DNA from: a virus
DNA: 37,198 bases
IMG/VR virus record: IMGVR_UViG_3300018067_000090
Location: 1-37,198 of that record
Reading direction: 5' to 3' (one strand)
Shown: piece after piece, positions 8,290-30,555 of the stretch
Layout: each line of letters begins with the position of its first letter
Numbering within the stretch: the first letter of the stretch is position 1
Made by a program: the position numbers and the translations under genes
The notes under the pieces: generated by a model
The model's input: the letters and a program-made list of their open reading frames with translations, nothing else
What the model was told of the DNA's origin: nothing
Database searches by the model: none

Positions 8290-8967
8290 ATGTTAGCATT
8301 CGAAGTTATGGATAGGGCGCGTGTTCACCTGAATGACGCAGGTGCAGACGTGTTTACCAATTCGGTGCTATTACCATTCCTCACGTCTGCGTGGGAAGAA
8401 CTTCAAAGCACTATGCAGGCGCATGGGCTTCCAATCATGACGGAAACCTCATGCCCTGTTGAATTACCTACGGGTACGTCGTCTCTTTCTAACGTTACGA
8501 CGCCACCGTTACCACCTGATTTCCTTGAGCCTAAGGCAATCTATGAACGCGCACCGGGCACGATACGATGGGATGAAATGGGTGAGGCGCATGGCATTAT
8601 AGACTCGACGCCGCGTAACTCGTTAGGCGTATGGGAATGGACTGGTGATGAAATTAAATTCATCGGTGCCACTGCGCCGAGGGAGATATTGATTCGTTAC
8701 CTTAAAGGCTTACCACAGATTACATCAGAAAATACAAACCTACCTATTACCGGCGCCAAAAGATATTTAGCATTAAAGACCGCAGCAGAAGCCGCAGATG
8801 ATATTGGTCAGAATCGTTCACGTTCGGATCGTTTGGAAACGAAAGCTGAATTCGAGATGAATCGTTTCCTTGCGATAAGAGTGAAATTGCAGCAAGATGT
8901 GTCCGTTCGACGTAGAGGTTACACCGCAAAGGGGAGGTCAGGATGGCCGTCACTGTTACCGTATTAA
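8290..8967 (+). CDS. Head-tail adaptor (connector) protein
   Basis: The 225-residue protein resembles the adaptors that dock under the portal (the gp4 class of P22 and gp11 class of T7). It has the typical start VMDRARVHLNDAG, a helical first segment (LPFLTSAWEELQSTMQAHGL), a beta middle (IRWDEMGEAHGIID, VWEWTGDEIKFIGA) and a basic helical C-terminus that would contact the portal. It comes just before the nozzle gene, as in other podoviruses. AGGA lies 9 nt upstream of the ATG. Its last 25 nt overlap the next gene. Confidence 0.6.
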   Translation: MLAFEVMDRARVHLNDAGADVFTNSVLLPFLTSAWEELQSTMQAHGLPIMTETSCPVELPTGTSSLSNVTTPPLPPDFLEPKAIYERAPGTIRWDEMGEAHGIIDSTPRNSLGVWEWTGDEIKFIGATAPREILIRYLKGLPQITSENTNLPITGAKRYLALKTAAEAADDIGQNRSRSDRLETKAEFEMNRFLAIRVKLQQDVSVRRRGYTAKGRSGWPSLLPY

Positions 8968-9242
8968 CTCAGAAGCGTGTTCCGGGTGTGGGATTGATGA
9001 CAACGGGTACGTTTAATCTGTCGGGAAGCTATGCTGCTGGTGGAGATTTAGCGAATTTAGCATTGCCCGGTGGTGCGAATCCATCGTTTGTTTCAACTGG
9101 ATTGGCTGGTGAGTATTCTGCTCATTACGACCAGTCCACGAAGAAGTTAAGAATCTTTAAGGTCACAGCAGGCGTACCTACGGAAGCCGCTGCGGGACCG
9201 TATACGGGTACTCCAAAGATTCCTTTCTTTGCTGTAGCTTAA
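8943..9242 (+). CDS. Small beta-rich structural protein, 99 aa
   Basis: The 99-residue protein is Gly-, Ala- and Thr-rich, predicted to be mostly beta strand, and has no Cys. Its GGDLANLALPGG segment and C-terminal FFAVA resemble small decoration or tail-accessory proteins found between adaptor and nozzle genes in environmental podoviruses. It has one of the best ribosome-binding sites in the window (GGGGAGG at 8931-8937, 5 nt before ATG), which suggests high copy number. Function is inferred: capsid cement or tail-associated protein. Confidence 0.55.
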   Translation: MAVTVTVLTQKRVPGVGLMTTGTFNLSGSYAAGGDLANLALPGGANPSFVSTGLAGEYSAHYDQSTKKLRIFKVTAGVPTEAAAGPYTGTPKIPFFAVA

Positions 9243-9246
9243 GACT

Positions 9247-11106
9247 ATGAACCGAGACCACGCTCCCATCGTTATCTCAGAAACTCAGGGCCTATTCTAT
9301 AGGTCCGACCTTCAGGATTCTGTTCCAGTAGATCACCTGATTGTTGCGGATAACGTTTACTATCAGGAGCGTGGTTTTCGTACACGTCCCGGTTCAGCAA
9401 AGTTACATGAAGTCGTGGGCGGTGTGCGGAGGTTCTATTCCTATAAACGTTTAGATGAAGTGGCGAGGTTGCTCATTCTAAACGAGAACGGGCAGTTGTA
9501 CGATTCAACAGACTTAGGCGCACCGATCTTAAATATTCCCGAGATGGTTGATTTTAGCGCCGCTCAGTATTTCAATCGAATCTACATCACGCCACATGAT
9601 AGAAACAGGGGATTAGAGAACCAGTCAGTATGGGTATACGATGGAACGACATGTCGTGTTGCTGGCGGTTCTGCTCCTGCTGGTAGCATTACGTGTATTA
9701 ACTCTCCATTATCCGGACACGTTGAACAGGGTACGCATTTATTTGCTGTCTCATTTGAAACGGAATCTGGATACATTACGAAGCCAGGACCAGCTATTTA
9801 TGGCAGCGTTGTTGCAGATGGCACTCATGCTGTTGACATTAGCGGTATTCCTATTGGTCCTGTGGGGACTATTGCGCGTAGGATACTGGCTACTCGTCGA
9901 ATAGCCGACTACAATTTAGGCCAAGACGGTTATGTCTTCTATTTCGTACCGACAGGCCGTATTACAAATAATACTGATTCTACTGTCACTGTGGATTTTT
10001 ATGATGCTGACTTGGTATTAGAAGCAGACTATCTGTTTGACCAACTTAATGTAATTCCCGCAGGCGTAGGCATTGGTATTTATCAGGATTCTTTGATTGT
10101 ATGGGGTGAATTCAAAGAGCCGAGCGTTGTGCGGATTAGCAAACAAGGCGATCCCGAAGGTCATGATGGCGTAGCAGGATACCTTACCATTGCACCGAAC
10201 GAAGCTGGCGGCGTGAAGAATTGTGTGCAGTTTCGTGATTCTTTGTATATTCTCAAGTCGCAACGAACTTTTAGTACCTCAAGAGATTTAGTTAACACCG
10301 ATGCAGCAATCTTTTGGAGAGTAATCTCGATTGATGAAGGTATTGGTACTGAATGCTTCGGTGCGGCAACCGTATTAGACACCGCAGGTCCGAATACTGA
10401 CAACTTCATTATCGTAGCTAGAACGGGTGCGTTTACCTTTAATGGTATATATGTCCAGCCCGAATTCTCGTGGAAGATTGATAGACTTTGGACATTACTC
10501 GACCAAACGCGCTTTAATGAGACGCAGATCATTAATGATGTGGTCGGTGGACGAATCTTTATTTTGTTGCCTGATGGTAATATACTTCTTGGTGACTACC
10601 GAAATGGGTTGGGATACAGTTCAATCCGCTGGTCGCGTTGGACATTCCCTTGGCCAATTACTGCGATAGGCATTGACGTAGACTCAGACCAAGTTGTAAA
10701 CGTTTTACTCGGTGCTAATAGCGTCATTTGGAAGCTCGACTTAGAATTTAGATTCGACGATATGAATGATGGTGATTATGGCATCAACACTGTCGTCGAA
10801 TATGCAGCGCAAGCCGTTGGTAACTACGGTTCTATTGCTCATTATCATGGTGTGCGGATGCGCGCGCTCGGTAAGGGTAATCTCAATACAACCGTCAAAG
10901 GTATCGACAGTGCGAGTCCATCGGTGTTACGTCCTTTGGCGCTTTCAGCGCTTCCAGGAAAATATCTCTATCGCGGTTGTAATCTGCGCAACGAGAAGTG
11001 CGTTGTCAGGTTAGAGCTTGCGAATGCTGGTGAGTGGATACACTTGTTAGAACTTACTCTATTCGCATCTGAGATGTGGCTGGAGCGTCCAAGTGACACA
11101 GCTTAA
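9247..11106 (+). CDS. Tail nozzle / tubular protein B-like (beta-propeller)
   Basis: The 619-residue protein fits the P22 gp10 / T7 gp12 class that closes the short tail. The N-terminal region carries the family signature ADNVYYQERGFRTRPGSAKL (residues about 33-52). It is followed by propeller-like blades, such as FYSYKRLDEVARLLILNENG and ILKSQRTFSTS, and by hub domains. No catalytic residues are expected. It follows the adaptor gene and leads into the fibronectin-III protein with a 14-nt overlap. The Shine-Dalgarno site before its ATG is poor, so it may depend on coupling to the preceding gene, whose stop is 4 nt upstream. Confidence 0.75.
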   Translation: MNRDHAPIVISETQGLFYRSDLQDSVPVDHLIVADNVYYQERGFRTRPGSAKLHEVVGGVRRFYSYKRLDEVARLLILNENGQLYDSTDLGAPILNIPEMVDFSAAQYFNRIYITPHDRNRGLENQSVWVYDGTTCRVAGGSAPAGSITCINSPLSGHVEQGTHLFAVSFETESGYITKPGPAIYGSVVADGTHAVDISGIPIGPVGTIARRILATRRIADYNLGQDGYVFYFVPTGRITNNTDSTVTVDFYDADLVLEADYLFDQLNVIPAGVGIGIYQDSLIVWGEFKEPSVVRISKQGDPEGHDGVAGYLTIAPNEAGGVKNCVQFRDSLYILKSQRTFSTSRDLVNTDAAIFWRVISIDEGIGTECFGAATVLDTAGPNTDNFIIVARTGAFTFNGIYVQPEFSWKIDRLWTLLDQTRFNETQIINDVVGGRIFILLPDGNILLGDYRNGLGYSSIRWSRWTFPWPITAIGIDVDSDQVVNVLLGANSVIWKLDLEFRFDDMNDGDYGINTVVEYAAQAVGNYGSIAHYHGVRMRALGKGNLNTTVKGIDSASPSVLRPLALSALPGKYLYRGCNLRNEKCVVRLELANAGEWIHLLELTLFASEMWLERPSDTA

Positions 11107-25428: not shown

Positions 25429-26637
25429 TTAGTTGTATTTGAGTATTCGAGTTTCGGTTGCTGTGTGCTTACGGTACTCTGCAATCACGTGGTCTTGTAG
25501 CGTGTAGTACGTCTCTCTTGAGTCAATCTCTTCCCGTACCACATTCGCTTCCTTCAGAGTATCCATAACACGCGTCAACTCAAACGCATCGAGATGTCTC
25601 CATAGTTTCCTGAGAATCGCTACTCTTGTTAAGGAGTAGCTTTCCGACTTAACTAACGCCTCAAGCACGATGGACGTTTGCTTGGCGATGGGCGTTGTCG
25701 TATTACCTGGGGAGTTATTCGTTACTGTCTGCGCGTTTGTCATGCACGACCCGCAAACAGAAATTGCTTCTTGAATATCCTCAGGTGTTAGTAACAAATC
25801 AATTCCCCTTGCCATCGATATAAGCATGGCAACCTTGAGCACGGTATCAGGGAATCGCATAGCCGTACCCGTTGTATCATCTTCGTTTGGTTCGTATTCT
25901 TCATACCATGATTCGTAAAAATCAGCGGCGTCTGGCGTATATTGAAACTCTCCTTTTAAACTAGCTACTGTCTTGAGATGTTCAGATAATGCTTCGTAGT
26001 CTATGGTATTGCCGGTGCGATGTACGAGCGCGTTCTTTTTATTTCGCTTGCTCTCTGATACCATGAGTGTGCGAGCGATAAACCCACCCATAATATCACG
26101 TTGCCCAATGACAGCGTGTAAATGAGTTTCGTTGGATGCACCAAGCATACTGAGGTACACATTGCGGAGAATAGACTTGCCAGATTTAAGAAGATTTGTA
26201 TGCGTGTCTTTGTACTGTGAGTCATATAAGTCCGTTAATATGGTCAAAGCCTGCTGGTCTTCTAGAATTGATTGTGAAAATTCACCTGAAACAATGAACG
26301 CGGTCGCATCTTTACTAGCGGTCCCGTCCTTATTCATTGTTTGGTGACCTAAATTCTCAATGATTGCTTGGATTGACGAGCGTCCAGCAATCACCTTGGT
26401 AACGTTCAAGTCTGTCACCAACTTCTCTGCTACCTTAATGGGCAAACCTTTCTTGATGCCCGATGGCCCGATGAGCATGATGTATACGTTAGGATACAGC
26501 TTGTATGCACCTGCCCTATCGAGCCATACGTTGCGCTTGACTATAGCCGACAAAACTCCTAAGCCCGCGAAATAGAAATATCTTCGTGGAGATTCAAGGT
26601 CTTGCGTTTGCGACATGAGCAAGTCCAACCAACTCAT
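25429..26637 (-). CDS. DUF3987-like replication ATPase (primase/helicase-associated)
   Basis: The 402-residue protein resembles DUF3987-type P-loop ATPases found with phage replication genes and probably acts as a helicase or loader. The P-loop region is GPSGIKKG (57-64), where the usual GK[ST] ending is KKG, so the Thr/Ser that binds magnesium is missing or shifted. Residues about 100-220 hold further ATPase strands (FIVSGEFSQSI, LSMLGASNETH), and residues about 320-390 look like a winged-helix domain (LTRVAILRKLW, FELTRVMDTLKEANVV). The ATG overlaps the polymerase stop as ATGA, so the two are coupled and probably work together. The exact activity is not proven. Confidence 0.6.
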   Translation of the reverse strand: MSWLDLLMSQTQDLESPRRYFYFAGLGVLSAIVKRNVWLDRAGAYKLYPNVYIMLIGPSGIKKGLPIKVAEKLVTDLNVTKVIAGRSSIQAIIENLGHQTMNKDGTASKDATAFIVSGEFSQSILEDQQALTILTDLYDSQYKDTHTNLLKSGKSILRNVYLSMLGASNETHLHAVIGQRDIMGGFIARTLMVSESKRNKKNALVHRTGNTIDYEALSEHLKTVASLKGEFQYTPDAADFYESWYEEYEPNEDDTTGTAMRFPDTVLKVAMLISMARGIDLLLTPEDIQEAISVCGSCMTNAQTVTNNSPGNTTTPIAKQTSIVLEALVKSESYSLTRVAILRKLWRHLDAFELTRVMDTLKEANVVREEIDSRETYYTLQDHVIAEYRKHTATETRILKYN

Positions 26638-29036
26638 GATATCTTATAGTCTACTAAGTCATGCAAGTTACGCTCGCCAAGTTCAAACTCGGCTGGAATG
26701 ATTAGAGTTCCCCGAGGGATAGAACATCCGGAAAAGTCGATGGGCATTTCCAATCCCTTCTTGAATACCTTAGCATAGGCATTAACCTCGCTGATAGGTA
26801 CGAGAGCACCTATTGCGTCATGCTTTTCCATCACGATGCGACAATCTGGAATCTCATGTTTAATGTACAGCATCGCCCGTTTAACCGCATCGCCCACGGT
26901 GGACTGCGGAATCATGGCGTATGCTTCCTTAAACAACTGGTCGCCCCATCGCCCGGCAAACGTACGCTTACGGCCGAACGGTGTAGTTAACGTTCGTTCG
27001 TTTGCTGCTAATGCATCTTGAACTGCGACGTGAAAGACTGAACGAATCTTCGGATACGCTGCATGGAATCGTTCAAGAATCTGTCCAGCTTTCCACTCGG
27101 ATACGTTGAGCGCGATGCCATACTTCTTCGCATCGGTATTAAACGTAATCATCGCACGATGCTTCCCCATGTCGTACGACCCTGCATGCCTTGAAGTTTT
27201 GCCAAGGAAACGTTCGGGCGAACCTTTCTTCACGACAAACATTTCGCCTAATGATAACACGATTCGTGCGGTCTTAGCGTGCTTGTCTATCTTACCGTAT
27301 TCTTCGAGTCCTTCATAATCTTCGCACAATAAATCAACAACTCTTGCTTCGGCTTGCGATAGGTCAGCTTCTAAGTATACGTAGCCTTCATCAACAATCA
27401 TCATTGTTAAGATGTCGGCGCCCATCTCGGAATGCTTTGTTATGGTTTGGAAGGCGAGTCCAATTGGCTCAGGTCTTGTAGGTGGCTTAAGAGTTTGAGT
27501 CGAAGTTCTTCCTGTCTCGGTTCCAACAATTTGATAAGAAGTTCTGTACCGTCCGTCATAGTCTGGACAAGCCTCGATGTAAGTGCCAATGGTCTTTCGG
27601 ATAGTACGGCCTCTAAGTATTCGATCAATAATCGGAACGACCTTGGGCTTGCGTTCACCATGATTAGCCTGTAAAGAGACAAGAACCTCCTCTCCAGTTC
27701 CGTCTCTGGCTGGCAACTTAAGTTCATTGTATATAAGTTCTCCAATTTGCTTTGGGCTTGCGACGTTGATTGAATGTCCAATGAGCTTCTCCAGTTCCTC
27801 TTGGTTTTCTTCGTTGAGCTTACGATACTTTATCTCAAGCGATGCACGCTTTTCAAAATCGCATGCGATGCCTTGTCGCTCGATGTCTAAGTACAAGTCA
27901 TGCAAATGATGTACGAAGTTGTAATAGAACTCACGTACACCAAACGTTTCGAGTTCTCTATCTAGCGTCTCAAAGATTTCAAAGTCTACCGCGCAGTCTT
28001 TCGCATTATATAAATAAAGTCTGTCTGCGGAGTCCTTTTTCGGATTGAACTCTTTACCTTCAAGCTTGTAATACGGCTCGCGGGTGTGGATACTTGCCAA
28101 GAATGCCAAACCCTTTGGTAGCTCGGGATATCGAGTGTGCGCCATGAGCATCGTATCCGCATGGAAGTTTGGAATCCTGAATCCTAGCTGGTGGAGTTTT
28201 CCTTCGTCGAATTTCCAGTTCTGCCCGATAATTCGCTTATTTCGCAGAAGTATGTCGGCACACTTCCAGAACTCTGCAAGTTCACGCTTGGAATAATCGC
28301 CAAACTTAACTCCCCATAATTCGTTAAAGAGAGGTATTGAGATAGCTTCGTGACTACTTGTTGCAAATCCGATACAATTTGGAATGGACTTATATGTCTC
28401 GATGTCAGAGGCAGCGTAAACTTTATCACGCCATCGGTCAAGGTAACGGTATAGTTGTGCGGAATCTCGAATGACAACAAGGTTTCTTTGTGGTATTGGG
28501 GTTCCATTTATTTCCTGTACCAGTCTGCGGACATCAAACTCTGCGACGGACTTGTCGATAACGGAATCGCTACGGAGTATGTACGCGGGGTGATAGGTGG
28601 GGATGACTCGTTTCTTGACTCTATCACTATAGAGAATTGAACCTCTCCACTGAGTGATTCCACTATTTCCAGTGAGAGCCTGTAAGGAGACATTTCCAAG
28701 GGCAAGGATAATTTTAGGATTAATCGTCTTGATTTCTTCGTAGAGGAATTCTTTATATCCATCGAAGTTCCTTACTTTATGAATGTCGTAAACTGTCTTG
28801 CCTGCTTTAGTTACTTTCGGTGGCTCAGTTTTAACAACGTTTGTTACCCAACATTCTGAGCGTGTGATGCCGGCTTGTTGAAGAAGTTGATTTAACAAAT
28901 GGCCTGATGGCCCAATGAAAGGTTTGCCCGAGCGCTGTTCTTGTTCGCCTGGCGCTTCGCCAACAATCATGATGTCAGCGTTGGCATTACCCTCTCCGAG
29001 TACATCGAGTTGTAAATTTAAGGCAGATGTTTCCAT
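26634..29036 (-). CDS. DNA polymerase A fused to family-4-like uracil-DNA glycosylase
   Basis: Three domains in 800 residues. First, a UDG family-4-like domain (1-180): GEAPGEQE at 26-33, GKPFIGPSG at 37-45 and HPAY at 149-152. Second, a DEDDy 3'-5' exonuclease: DIE at 211-213, Asn273/Asp277, and Tyr343-x3-Asp347. Third, a family A polymerase: motif A DLSQAEAR from 558, motif B Arg609/Lys613/Tyr621, and motif C His739-Asp740. The UDG part lacks the cysteines that hold the 4Fe-4S cluster in family 4 (KTEPP where KCxPP is usual). At the E. coli Phe762 position there is His617. It is the replicative polymerase candidate. SPO1-type polymerases also carry an N-terminal UDG-like domain. AAGGA lies about 10 nt before the ATG. 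Confidence 0.9.
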   Translation of the reverse strand: METSALNLQLDVLGEGNANADIMIVGEAPGEQEQRSGKPFIGPSGHLLNQLLQQAGITRSECWVTNVVKTEPPKVTKAGKTVYDIHKVRNFDGYKEFLYEEIKTINPKIILALGNVSLQALTGNSGITQWRGSILYSDRVKKRVIPTYHPAYILRSDSVIDKSVAEFDVRRLVQEINGTPIPQRNLVVIRDSAQLYRYLDRWRDKVYAASDIETYKSIPNCIGFATSSHEAISIPLFNELWGVKFGDYSKRELAEFWKCADILLRNKRIIGQNWKFDEGKLHQLGFRIPNFHADTMLMAHTRYPELPKGLAFLASIHTREPYYKLEGKEFNPKKDSADRLYLYNAKDCAVDFEIFETLDRELETFGVREFYYNFVHHLHDLYLDIERQGIACDFEKRASLEIKYRKLNEENQEELEKLIGHSINVASPKQIGELIYNELKLPARDGTGEEVLVSLQANHGERKPKVVPIIDRILRGRTIRKTIGTYIEACPDYDGRYRTSYQIVGTETGRTSTQTLKPPTRPEPIGLAFQTITKHSEMGADILTMMIVDEGYVYLEADLSQAEARVVDLLCEDYEGLEEYGKIDKHAKTARIVLSLGEMFVVKKGSPERFLGKTSRHAGSYDMGKHRAMITFNTDAKKYGIALNVSEWKAGQILERFHAAYPKIRSVFHVAVQDALAANERTLTTPFGRKRTFAGRWGDQLFKEAYAMIPQSTVGDAVKRAMLYIKHEIPDCRIVMEKHDAIGALVPISEVNAYAKVFKKGLEMPIDFSGCSIPRGTLIIPAEFELGERNLHDLVDYKIS

Positions 29037-29467
29037 GTTTCATAATTCCTTATAGCATGGATTGTGTGGACACTTATGTTATATTCTTTGGCTAACATAA
29101 CAAGCGTCTTGTTAGCTACCTTATCCTGCCGAATTGATAACACTTGCTCAGGCGTGAGCTTAGCACGCCCATGTTGGGTACCCTTAGCTTGTCTGCCCTT
29201 TAATACTTTATCTAATTGATTTCCTCTTTGCGTAGTTAGTTTTAAATGTTCAGGTTGTATGCATTGTGTAACATCGCATGTGTGCATTACTACCATGCCC
29301 TTGGGAATAGGCCCGTTGCAAATCATATACATTTCACGATGTATAGCCAAACATATACTATCTTCCCACGCTCTTGGATAGCCCCAATTATTTATTGAGC
29401 CCATCCAAATAAGGCAACCTTGCTCATTCAGCGGTGCGCAATTAGCGAGAATTCGCTTGATGTTCAT
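29018..29467 (-). CDS. HNH homing-type endonuclease with C-terminal HTH
   Basis: The 149-residue protein has an HNH core, MHTCDVTQCIQPEHL (61-75), with His62, Cys64, Cys69 and His74. The Asn usual in CxNPxHL is Gln71, which may lower activity. The C-terminal part (KLTPEQVLSIRQ, then KTLVMLAKEYNISVHTIHAI) is a helix-turn-helix that would read the target site. It is a free-standing homing-type enzyme wedged between the Dam-like gene (26-nt overlap) and the polymerase gene (19-nt overlap). Its base composition is more A/T-rich than that of its neighbours, which suggests later arrival. It has no clear Shine-Dalgarno site. Confidence 0.85.
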   Translation of the reverse strand: MNIKRILANCAPLNEQGCLIWMGSINNWGYPRAWEDSICLAIHREMYMICNGPIPKGMVVMHTCDVTQCIQPEHLKLTTQRGNQLDKVLKGRQAKGTQHGRAKLTPEQVLSIRQDKVANKTLVMLAKEYNISVHTIHAIRNYETWKHLP

Positions 29468-29876
29468 AAATCTGTGCTTGCTTTTCAGTTGTTATTCTTT
29501 CAAGCTCTGCATCACTCCTAAAAACTATTAGGCATGCAGGCACGCGCTTGATTTGATTATCTTCAGTCGTGAACTTTACGCGACCTTGAATGGGCCGTAA
29601 AGTAACACGGCCATTGCCCGCTGTTGATTTATTGAATACATTTGAAAACCACTCGGTCGATGTATCGGAAGGGATGACTAAGACAACGAGGTCAGCTTTA
29701 GCTTTGAGAGATTTGTTAATGATGAGTTCGGGTATGCCTTGCTTAATTGGTGGGACGATGGAGATTAAGAAACGGCCGTGGTCGAGCGGATGGAATATGC
29801 AATGTGGCGTGATGAGTTCGGTATCGAATCTGAACTCACGCTGGAGTTCACTCCTTAACTTTTCGGGTAGAGTCAT
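29442..29876 (-). CDS. Dam-like adenine methyltransferase relative, truncated or degenerate
   Basis: The 144 residues resemble the C-terminal half of phage N6-adenine methyltransferases (PF05869 Dam family). Those enzymes have a catalytic NPPY followed by a helix, a strand, an IPxDTSTxWF block and a GRxKF block. Here the catalytic motif reads VPPI (41-44), then LVVLVIPSDTSTEWF (63-77) and GRVKF (98-102). The SAM-binding N-terminal part is absent and Asn/Asp and Tyr are missing from motif IV, so it is probably not an active methyltransferase by itself. AAGGA precedes the ATG. It could be a remnant, a DNA-binding derivative, or a split enzyme. Confidence 0.55.
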   Translation of the reverse strand: MTLPEKLRSELQREFRFDTELITPHCIFHPLDHGRFLISIVPPIKQGIPELIINKSLKAKADLVVLVIPSDTSTEWFSNVFNKSTAGNGRVTLRPIQGRVKFTTEDNQIKRVPACLIVFRSDAELERITTEKQAQIYEHQANSR

Positions 29877-29937: not shown

Positions 29938-30300
29938 TTAGAAACCCTGGGTCTTCAGATAATCCGCAAGGCTCATTTCATCCTTGTGATTCTTCAGCCA
30001 CTCGTCAGTCGCAGCCTGAACTTTGATTCCTAAATCTTGTTCTTCTGCGTCCGAGTCCTCATCATCTTCCTCATCATCTTCATCGATTTCTTCTGACTCA
30101 TCATCTTCGTCGTCATCAGAATCAATTTCTTCGTCCTCGTCCTCATCCTCATCTTCGGCGAGGATTTCGTCTGAGTCATCCTCATCCTCGTCGTCTTCGA
30201 TATCCTCTAATTCAATTTCATTTGGAAGAGCGGAAACATCAAGACCGAGCATAGCTGCTACTTGTTCCTTCTCGCCCGGTTTAAACACATGCTTTGTCAT
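29938..30300 (-). CDS. Hyperacidic small protein, 120 aa
   Basis: The ATG at 30300 is chosen because AAGGGAG lies about 9 nt upstream; the longer frame to 30387 lacks a site and would swallow another ORF. The product has a short basic start (MTKHVFKPGEKEQVAAMLG), then about 60 residues that are almost only Asp, Glu and Ser, then a helical C-terminus ending in SLADYLKTQGF. Very acidic phage proteins include DNA mimics and transcription or assembly factors, but nothing here selects one. It follows the small helical ORF with a 20-nt overlap. Confidence 0.65.
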   Translation of the reverse strand: MTKHVFKPGEKEQVAAMLGLDVSALPNEIELEDIEDDEDEDDSDEILAEDEDEDEDEEIDSDDDEDDESEEIDEDDEEDDEDSDAEEQDLGIKVQAATDEWLKNHKDEMSLADYLKTQGF

Positions 30301-30454
30301 TCGGCTGCTCCCTTTCCCGTAGTAAACGGTAACGGTGTTCAAGTTTGGATGCGGCAGACTGCAATCGGATTGTAAAATCTTCCGCATCCTTTGCGAGTTC
30401 GCGAAGCTTTGAAATGTGCTCCGCTATTTCTAACTTCAATCCGAGTTCGTCCAT
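30281..30454 (-). CDS. Small helical ORF after the tRNA, 57 aa
   Basis: The ATG at 30454 opens a 57-residue frame that ends inside the acidic-protein gene. The product (MDELGLKLEIAEHISKLREL at its start) looks like one long amphipathic helix with regular Leu/Ile spacing and Lys/Glu pairs, so it is probably a coiled coil. It fills the space between the tRNA (ending 15 nt upstream) and the acidic-protein gene. No clear Shine-Dalgarno site is seen, which lowers confidence. No family recognised. Confidence 0.45.
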   Translation of the reverse strand: MDELGLKLEIAEHISKLRELAKDAEDFTIRLQSAASKLEHRYRLLREREQPNDKACV

Positions 30455-30469
30455 TGGCGTATGAGTTAA

Positions 30470-30555
30470 TGGTGCAGGCGAAGGGACTCGAACCCTTATG
30501 GTTTTTCAACCTGTGGATTTTAAGTCCACTGCGTATGCCATTCCGCCACGCCTGC
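30470..30555 (-). tRNA. tRNA-Leu (anticodon UAA)
   Basis: On the minus strand it forms a perfect 7-bp acceptor stem (GCAGGCG with CGCCTGC), a D-arm, an anticodon arm GTGGA-CTTAAAA-TCCAC with anticodon TAA at 30522-30520, a long variable arm (GGTT-GAAA-AACC) and a T-arm with GGGTTCGAGTCCC. The long variable arm is diagnostic for class II (Leu/Ser). The CCA end is encoded. UAA reads TTA codons, which are frequent in many of the phage genes here. It lies within the early operon, 60 nt downstream of the SSB-like gene. Confidence 0.95.

Follow-up and report, generated by a model that had tools for sequence, protein, structure and literature searches.

The DNA polymerase of the Bacillus phage SPO1 (gp31) carries a UDG-like N-terminal domain on an exonuclease-polymerase, and this domain is devoid of the cluster cysteines. 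UDG-exonuclease-polymerase fusions have also been described for 11 jumbo phages, namely the Pseudomonas phage PaBG and those related to it, and the DNA polymerase I of this PaBG/Lupandier group has the same order of UDG, exonuclease and polymerase as the protein studied here (PMC7412058). The family-A polymerase of the Thermus phage phiLo, whose structure is solved (PDB 9QHS), has a UDG-like part at its N-terminus; our literature search found no paper on this structure. The phiLo polymerase is about 1175 aa long and keeps cluster-type cysteines. The UDG-polymerase of the Methanomicrobiales virus vir526 retains all four cluster-type cysteines and lies in the gene order exonuclease, Sak4, UDG-polymerase and primase.

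The link of such UDGs to SPO1 is old, since entries in PDB and NCBI are already labelled, for example, ‘Phage SPO1 DNA polymerase-related protein’, and a cluster-free UDG domain on a phage polymerase is thus already known in its basic form from SPO1. No paper discussing the cysteine loss was found in a partial search of the literature, so it may have been noticed earlier. What is new here is a family-wide state in which the cluster is absent while the uracil pocket is conserved, together with the finding, across phages, that either of the two has been lost without the other.

We analyzed a 37,198-base virus record (the window), in which a long run of plus-strand genes at the left is followed by minus-strand replication genes at the right, in a gene order comparable to that of vir526. 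Its polymerase, from a soil phage, is with 800 aa shorter than that of phiLo and, in contrast to both phiLo and vir526, keeps none of the cluster cysteines. It also differs from SPO1 gp31, where motif A reads QENPF and a serine occupies the position of Asn66, whereas the window has GEAPG and the asparagine.

Domain layout and genomic setting of the polymerase gene

In line with the first-pass annotation, which had placed a UDG domain at the head of the replicative polymerase (28500-29036), residues 1-178 (29036-28503 on the minus strand) form such a domain. Pfam searches returned a PF03167 (UDG) match at residues 14-159 (E 6.9e-29) and a DNA_pol_A match at residues 403-762 (E 2.5e-30). The catalytic residues of the exonuclease and the polymerase are all conserved, as in a family-A polymerase with a proofreading exonuclease, and the UDG fold lies N-terminal to both, which is the arrangement of the SPO1-type fusion. 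An AlphaFold2 (AF2) model of the whole fusion, built on 69 relatives, reached a mean pLDDT of 92.4 and a pTM of 0.89.

Table 1. Features of the polymerase gene and its UDG domain (positions in the window; family counts refer to 81 aligned members, from the best 80 of 321 relatives)
Feature	Position	Strand	Details
UDG-like / 3'-5' exonuclease / family-A DNA polymerase fusion	26634..29036	-	800 aa; Pfam UDG + DNA_pol_A; PHROG 17 DNA polymerase
Family-4-type UDG domain without cluster cysteines	28503..29036	-	residues 1-178
3'-5' exonuclease domain	27957..28424	-	residues about 205-360; catalytic D211, E213, D277, D347 invariant across family
Polymerase domain	26637..27905	-	residues about 378-800; D558, K613, H739-D740 invariant across family
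DUF3987 / primase-like gene	25429..26637	-	adjoins polymerase gene downstream
Motif A, G26-E-A-P-G30	28947..28961	-	alignment; Glu27 = UdgX E52
Phe40, pocket phenylalanine	28917..28919	-	80/81 of family
Cys62, only cysteine of UDG domain, not a cluster ligand	28851..28853	-	alignment
Asn66	28839..28841	-	= UdgX N91; 74/81 of family
Thr70, third cluster-ligand position	28827..28829	-	family alignment
Loop 70-90	28767..28829	-	few residues longer than in most of family
Gly93, fourth cluster-ligand position	28758..28760	-	alignment to Tth
Motif B, H149-PAYIL-R155	28572..28592	-	His149 = UdgX H178; Arg155 = R184

At an O-helix site with an influence on the sugar discrimination of family-A polymerases, where Taq has Phe (F667) and T7 polymerase has Tyr, the present protein carries a histidine (H617, 27186-27188, minus strand), which is kept in 68/69 family members.

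The succession of the polymerase gene and a DUF3987/primase-like gene was found in comparable order in MW202489, Mel-JY34 and vir526. At the other end, an HNH endonuclease gene (29018-29467, minus strand) overlaps the polymerase start by 19 bases; it is probably a mobile insertion, as it is missing from that place in the close relative L002. The possibility that this neighbour had shortened the polymerase gene was ruled out, given that the polymerase of L002 starts alike without it. A short minus-strand ORF (29442-29876) is similar to a Dam-type adenine methyltransferase along one portion of that enzyme only, with a PF05869 score below the cut-off; such a partial gene is also present in L002, L003 and L006, and MW202489 and Mel-JY34 have longer methyltransferase genes at a comparable place. 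Another minus-strand ORF (29938-30387), kept near the polymerase in L002-L004, encodes a very acidic protein of 149 aa (57 D/E, 11 K/R) for which no family match was found and which is possibly a DNA mimic. Between it and a 133-aa ORF lies a tRNA-Leu gene (anticodon taa; 30470-30555, minus strand). Relatives in GTDB were confined to four genome contigs and were distant (30% identity at best), so no host is named.

The gene content of the family bears on the suggestion, made in the first-pass annotation, that the domain is tied to an unusual DNA base; hydroxymethyluracil or another uracil derivative would be a candidate. Several other UDG-polymerase fusions do lie near thymidylate-synthase-like or queuosine genes, and SPO1 has a dUMP hydroxymethylase. 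However, neither PF00303 (the thymidylate-synthase-type family that holds dUMP/dCMP hydroxymethylases) nor dUTPase nor QueC was found in 26 records of the window's family, some of them incomplete. The suggested link was therefore not borne out, and we regard it as very improbable.

Cluster ligands and uracil pocket of the UDG domain

When the model of all 800 aa was compared with PDB folds, polymerases filled the matches and nothing was learned on the UDG part, and a separate model of the UDG domain was therefore made (pLDDT 94.9). The best solved relatives of residues 1-178 were family-4 UDGs from Thermus and Thermotoga. The domain model matched UDGa of Thermus thermophilus (Tth; 1UI0) with a Z of 23.8 (165 aligned residues, rmsd 2.3) and 1VK2 with a Z of 23.5, compared to 16.1 for 9QHS and about 14 for MUG/TDG. 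The α/β fold of UDGa is, as modelled, retained without the cluster. Tth UDGa, the best match of the domain in both structure and sequence, shares with it motifs A and B and an Asn80-type residue; in contrast, the Thermus enzyme is free-standing, with four cluster cysteines and Asn89. Further, the isolated domain scored 129.5 bits on TIGR00758 (cut-off 125.3), and 124.8 bits within the full protein, and the UDGa motifs are present as motif A of the GE(A/G)PG type, the conserved Asn66 and an HPA motif B starting at His149. The initial assignment to a family-4-like UDG is thus upheld by the TIGR00758 score, the structural match and both motifs.

None of the four ligands of the UDGa [4Fe-4S] cluster was found, in agreement with the loss of Fe-S cysteines that had been proposed initially. 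The third-ligand cysteine of Thermus UDGa, in ‘VKCRPP’, is replaced by threonine in ‘VKTEPP’, a glycine stands at the fourth position, and the N-terminal CxxC region is missing, so that the pair would fall at or before the protein start. The initial wording, by which Cys62 alone remains in place of four expected ligands, could suggest that it is one of them. It is indeed the sole cysteine of the domain, but not a leftover ligand, as it aligns with the valine column in ‘REEVYITN’ of Thermus UDGa. No ligands are hidden upstream, since the frame ahead of the polymerase start is closed by many stops and relatives begin the protein at the same point, among them L002, where the HNH neighbour is missing; a missed N-terminus with further cysteines was ruled out on these grounds. 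Because SPO1 gp31 is also without the four cysteines, the feature is a property of the prototype too and not peculiar to this phage.

An IMG/VR scan yielded 321 relatives; the best 80, on contigs of up to about 50 kb, were taken further and gave 81 aligned members. Neither the N-terminal cysteine pair nor the third-ligand cysteine was present in any of the 81 (best 80 of 321 relatives); the column of Thr70 holds cysteine in 0/81 and tyrosine in 50. By comparison, the pocket is well kept within this set, with Glu27 conserved in 71/81 members, Glu33 in 74/81 and His149 in 78/81, alongside Phe40 and Asn66 (Table 1). Within the UDG domain, Asn66 and His149 rank with the better conserved positions, and Arg155 of motif B is variable. 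Phe40 is presumably the residue that stacks on uracil. In UdgX, the counterpart of Glu27 serves in the activation of water or His, and those of Asn66 and His149 in uracil binding, the former through a hydrogen bond (PMC10359453).

A match to the UDG domain was found in 26/26 family records searched, one per record. For close pairs with unsaturated synonymous change, the dN/dS of the UDG part was 0.05-0.17, similar to or somewhat above that of the polymerase part; the domain is under purifying selection. Taken together, the absence of the cysteines from all 81 members, the preserved pocket, the occurrence in 26/26 records and the low dN/dS indicate that the cluster was lost in an ancestor of this phage family and that the UDG domain has been maintained rather than left to decay.

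One catalytic residue departs from this pattern. Loop 70-90, modelled as a β hairpin, lacks the PPxN asparagine of UDGa (Tth N89) in the window's clade of 8 sequences, several of them near-identical, in which Val75 takes its place; in the wider family the asparagine is kept in 62/81 members (best 80 of 321). A retained pocket without the catalytic asparagine would fit a sensor that reads ahead without excision, in which template uracil caught in the cluster-free pocket would bring the polymerase to a stall. Archaeal family-B polymerases capture template uracil and stall in this way. The pTM of the whole-fusion model would also agree with a UDG domain that is held in a set position against the exonuclease and polymerase. 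Nevertheless, retention of the asparagine in most of the wider family, as in an active enzyme, argues against such a sensor, which we hold to be unlikely. If true, it would be a phage family-A counterpart of the archaeal uracil stall, halting synthesis without cutting.

The same loop contains His86, which raised the question of a covalent trap like that of UdgX, with its R-loop KRRIH, covalent His109 and, in motif A, Gln53. phmmer pairs ‘ydIHK’ of the window with ‘rrIHK’ of the UdgX R-loop, and a score of 130 bits was obtained for the domain with the UdgX model. However, the curated cut-off of that model is 190 bits, family members without the loop score similarly, and multiple alignment moves His86 off H109. 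Moreover, His86 is restricted to the window and its closest relatives (L003, L004 and L006 have K, G or T there), the loop lacks KRR, motif A has A28 and not Q, and the UDG tree groups UdgX with free-standing enzymes. A trap of this kind is hardly credible here.

Cluster and active site across phage polymerases

Among fused UDG domains from many phages, all four combinations of cluster and site were present. Both are intact in ctfzr933, vir526, phiLo and ctLwi270, the four cysteines are kept with a broken site in PMBT14, Serbin, LysYB1 and BSTP5, and the cysteines are lost with an intact site in the window's family, Mel-JY34 and its relatives, and the L100 lineage. In SPO1, the L062 clade, L092 and L023 both are lost or damaged. 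Across phages, cluster and active site were lost independently of each other.

On a tree of 105 rows built from the exonuclease-polymerase part, about 3 changes were counted for the cluster versus 14 for the site, figures that are approximate since the tree is deep, several branches are long and the cysteine calls of L025 and L135 were corrected by eye. Glu, Asn and His of the site were all intact in 71/93 rows without the cysteines and in 5/12 rows bearing them. Loss of Asn66 tended to accompany that of Glu27 or His149, with independent pairs too few for significance, and independent-pair tests of cluster loss against site loss likewise had too few informative pairs.

These data bear on a purely architectural reading, in which the UDG fold binds DNA and clamps the polymerase on its template as a processivity module, by analogy with vaccinia D4, and the uracil pocket is a decaying relic. 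In keeping with it, none of the 26 family records searched is without the domain, yet the wider set shows about 14 losses of site residues, and in L023, L092, L110 and L125 hardly any usable pocket is left. By contrast, the intact Glu, Asn and His in most cysteine-less rows and the good conservation of Asn66 and His149 would not be needed by a pure clamp. We therefore view this reading as a possible but rather doubtful one.

Two further arrangements were observed. In a subclade comprising L048, L062, L065, L066, L072, L073 and L083, motif A reads GDFPN or GDYPD and the position of Asn66 is mostly Tyr, so that the pocket seems to have been reshaped and not just abolished. In the Caulobacter phage Kuura, the UDG-like part is encoded by a gene separate from that of the polymerase (L130:6950-8059 and 8672-10354), apparently a natural split form of the UDG-polymerase.

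A proposed uracil-recognition module tethered to the replisome

We favour, with about an even chance of its being right, the reading that the domain is a replisome-tethered, uracil-recognising and DNA-binding module that works without Fe-S, as judged from sequence and structural models. A family-4-type UDG fold would have been joined long ago to the N-terminus of a replicative exonuclease-polymerase, with loss of the [4Fe-4S] cluster in an ancestor of the phage family. The domain would scan the DNA on which the polymerase works, and uracil is probably still flipped and bound by it. In the window's own clade, which has no equivalent of Tth N89, any excision may be slow or may not take place. 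Free-standing enzymes are stabilised by the cluster; in the fusion, this part is presumably taken over by the attached exonuclease-polymerase.

Several considerations lead to this preference for a tethered uracil-recognising module, the first being the conserved pocket. Secondly, cysteine loss alone is no argument for a non-enzymatic role, given that cluster-breaking Cys-to-Ser mutants of two family-4 UDGs lose only about 40% of activity (PMC5295032), and the window's domain may still have ordinary glycosylase activity. Thirdly, retention of the domain while the site was lost about 14 times points to a role beyond excision. The nearest working example of such a role is, by analogy, the UNG of vaccinia, which acts in the viral replisome as a processivity factor (PMC10253040). 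Against the favoured reading stand the missing PPxN asparagine in the window's clade and the variability of Arg155 in the family. The repeated loss of pocket residues elsewhere also hints that the domain does more than uracil chemistry, which may even be secondary to it, and excision would do damage unless repair were coupled to it, as it would leave an abasic site ahead of the polymerase.

The first-pass annotation had considered a structural or uracil-sensing module. Its structural or DNA-binding part gains support from the presence of the domain in every family record searched in spite of the repeated loss of catalytic residues, and the sensing part is compatible with a mostly conserved pocket.

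The cluster and the uracil pocket, which usually occur together in family-4 UDGs, are separated in phage polymerases. Because these polymerases offer all four natural combinations, the debated question of whether the cluster serves structure, redox or nothing essential becomes testable by comparing a few expressed proteins, as does the so far unexplained role of UDG folds in replisomes such as those of SPO1 and the poxviruses.
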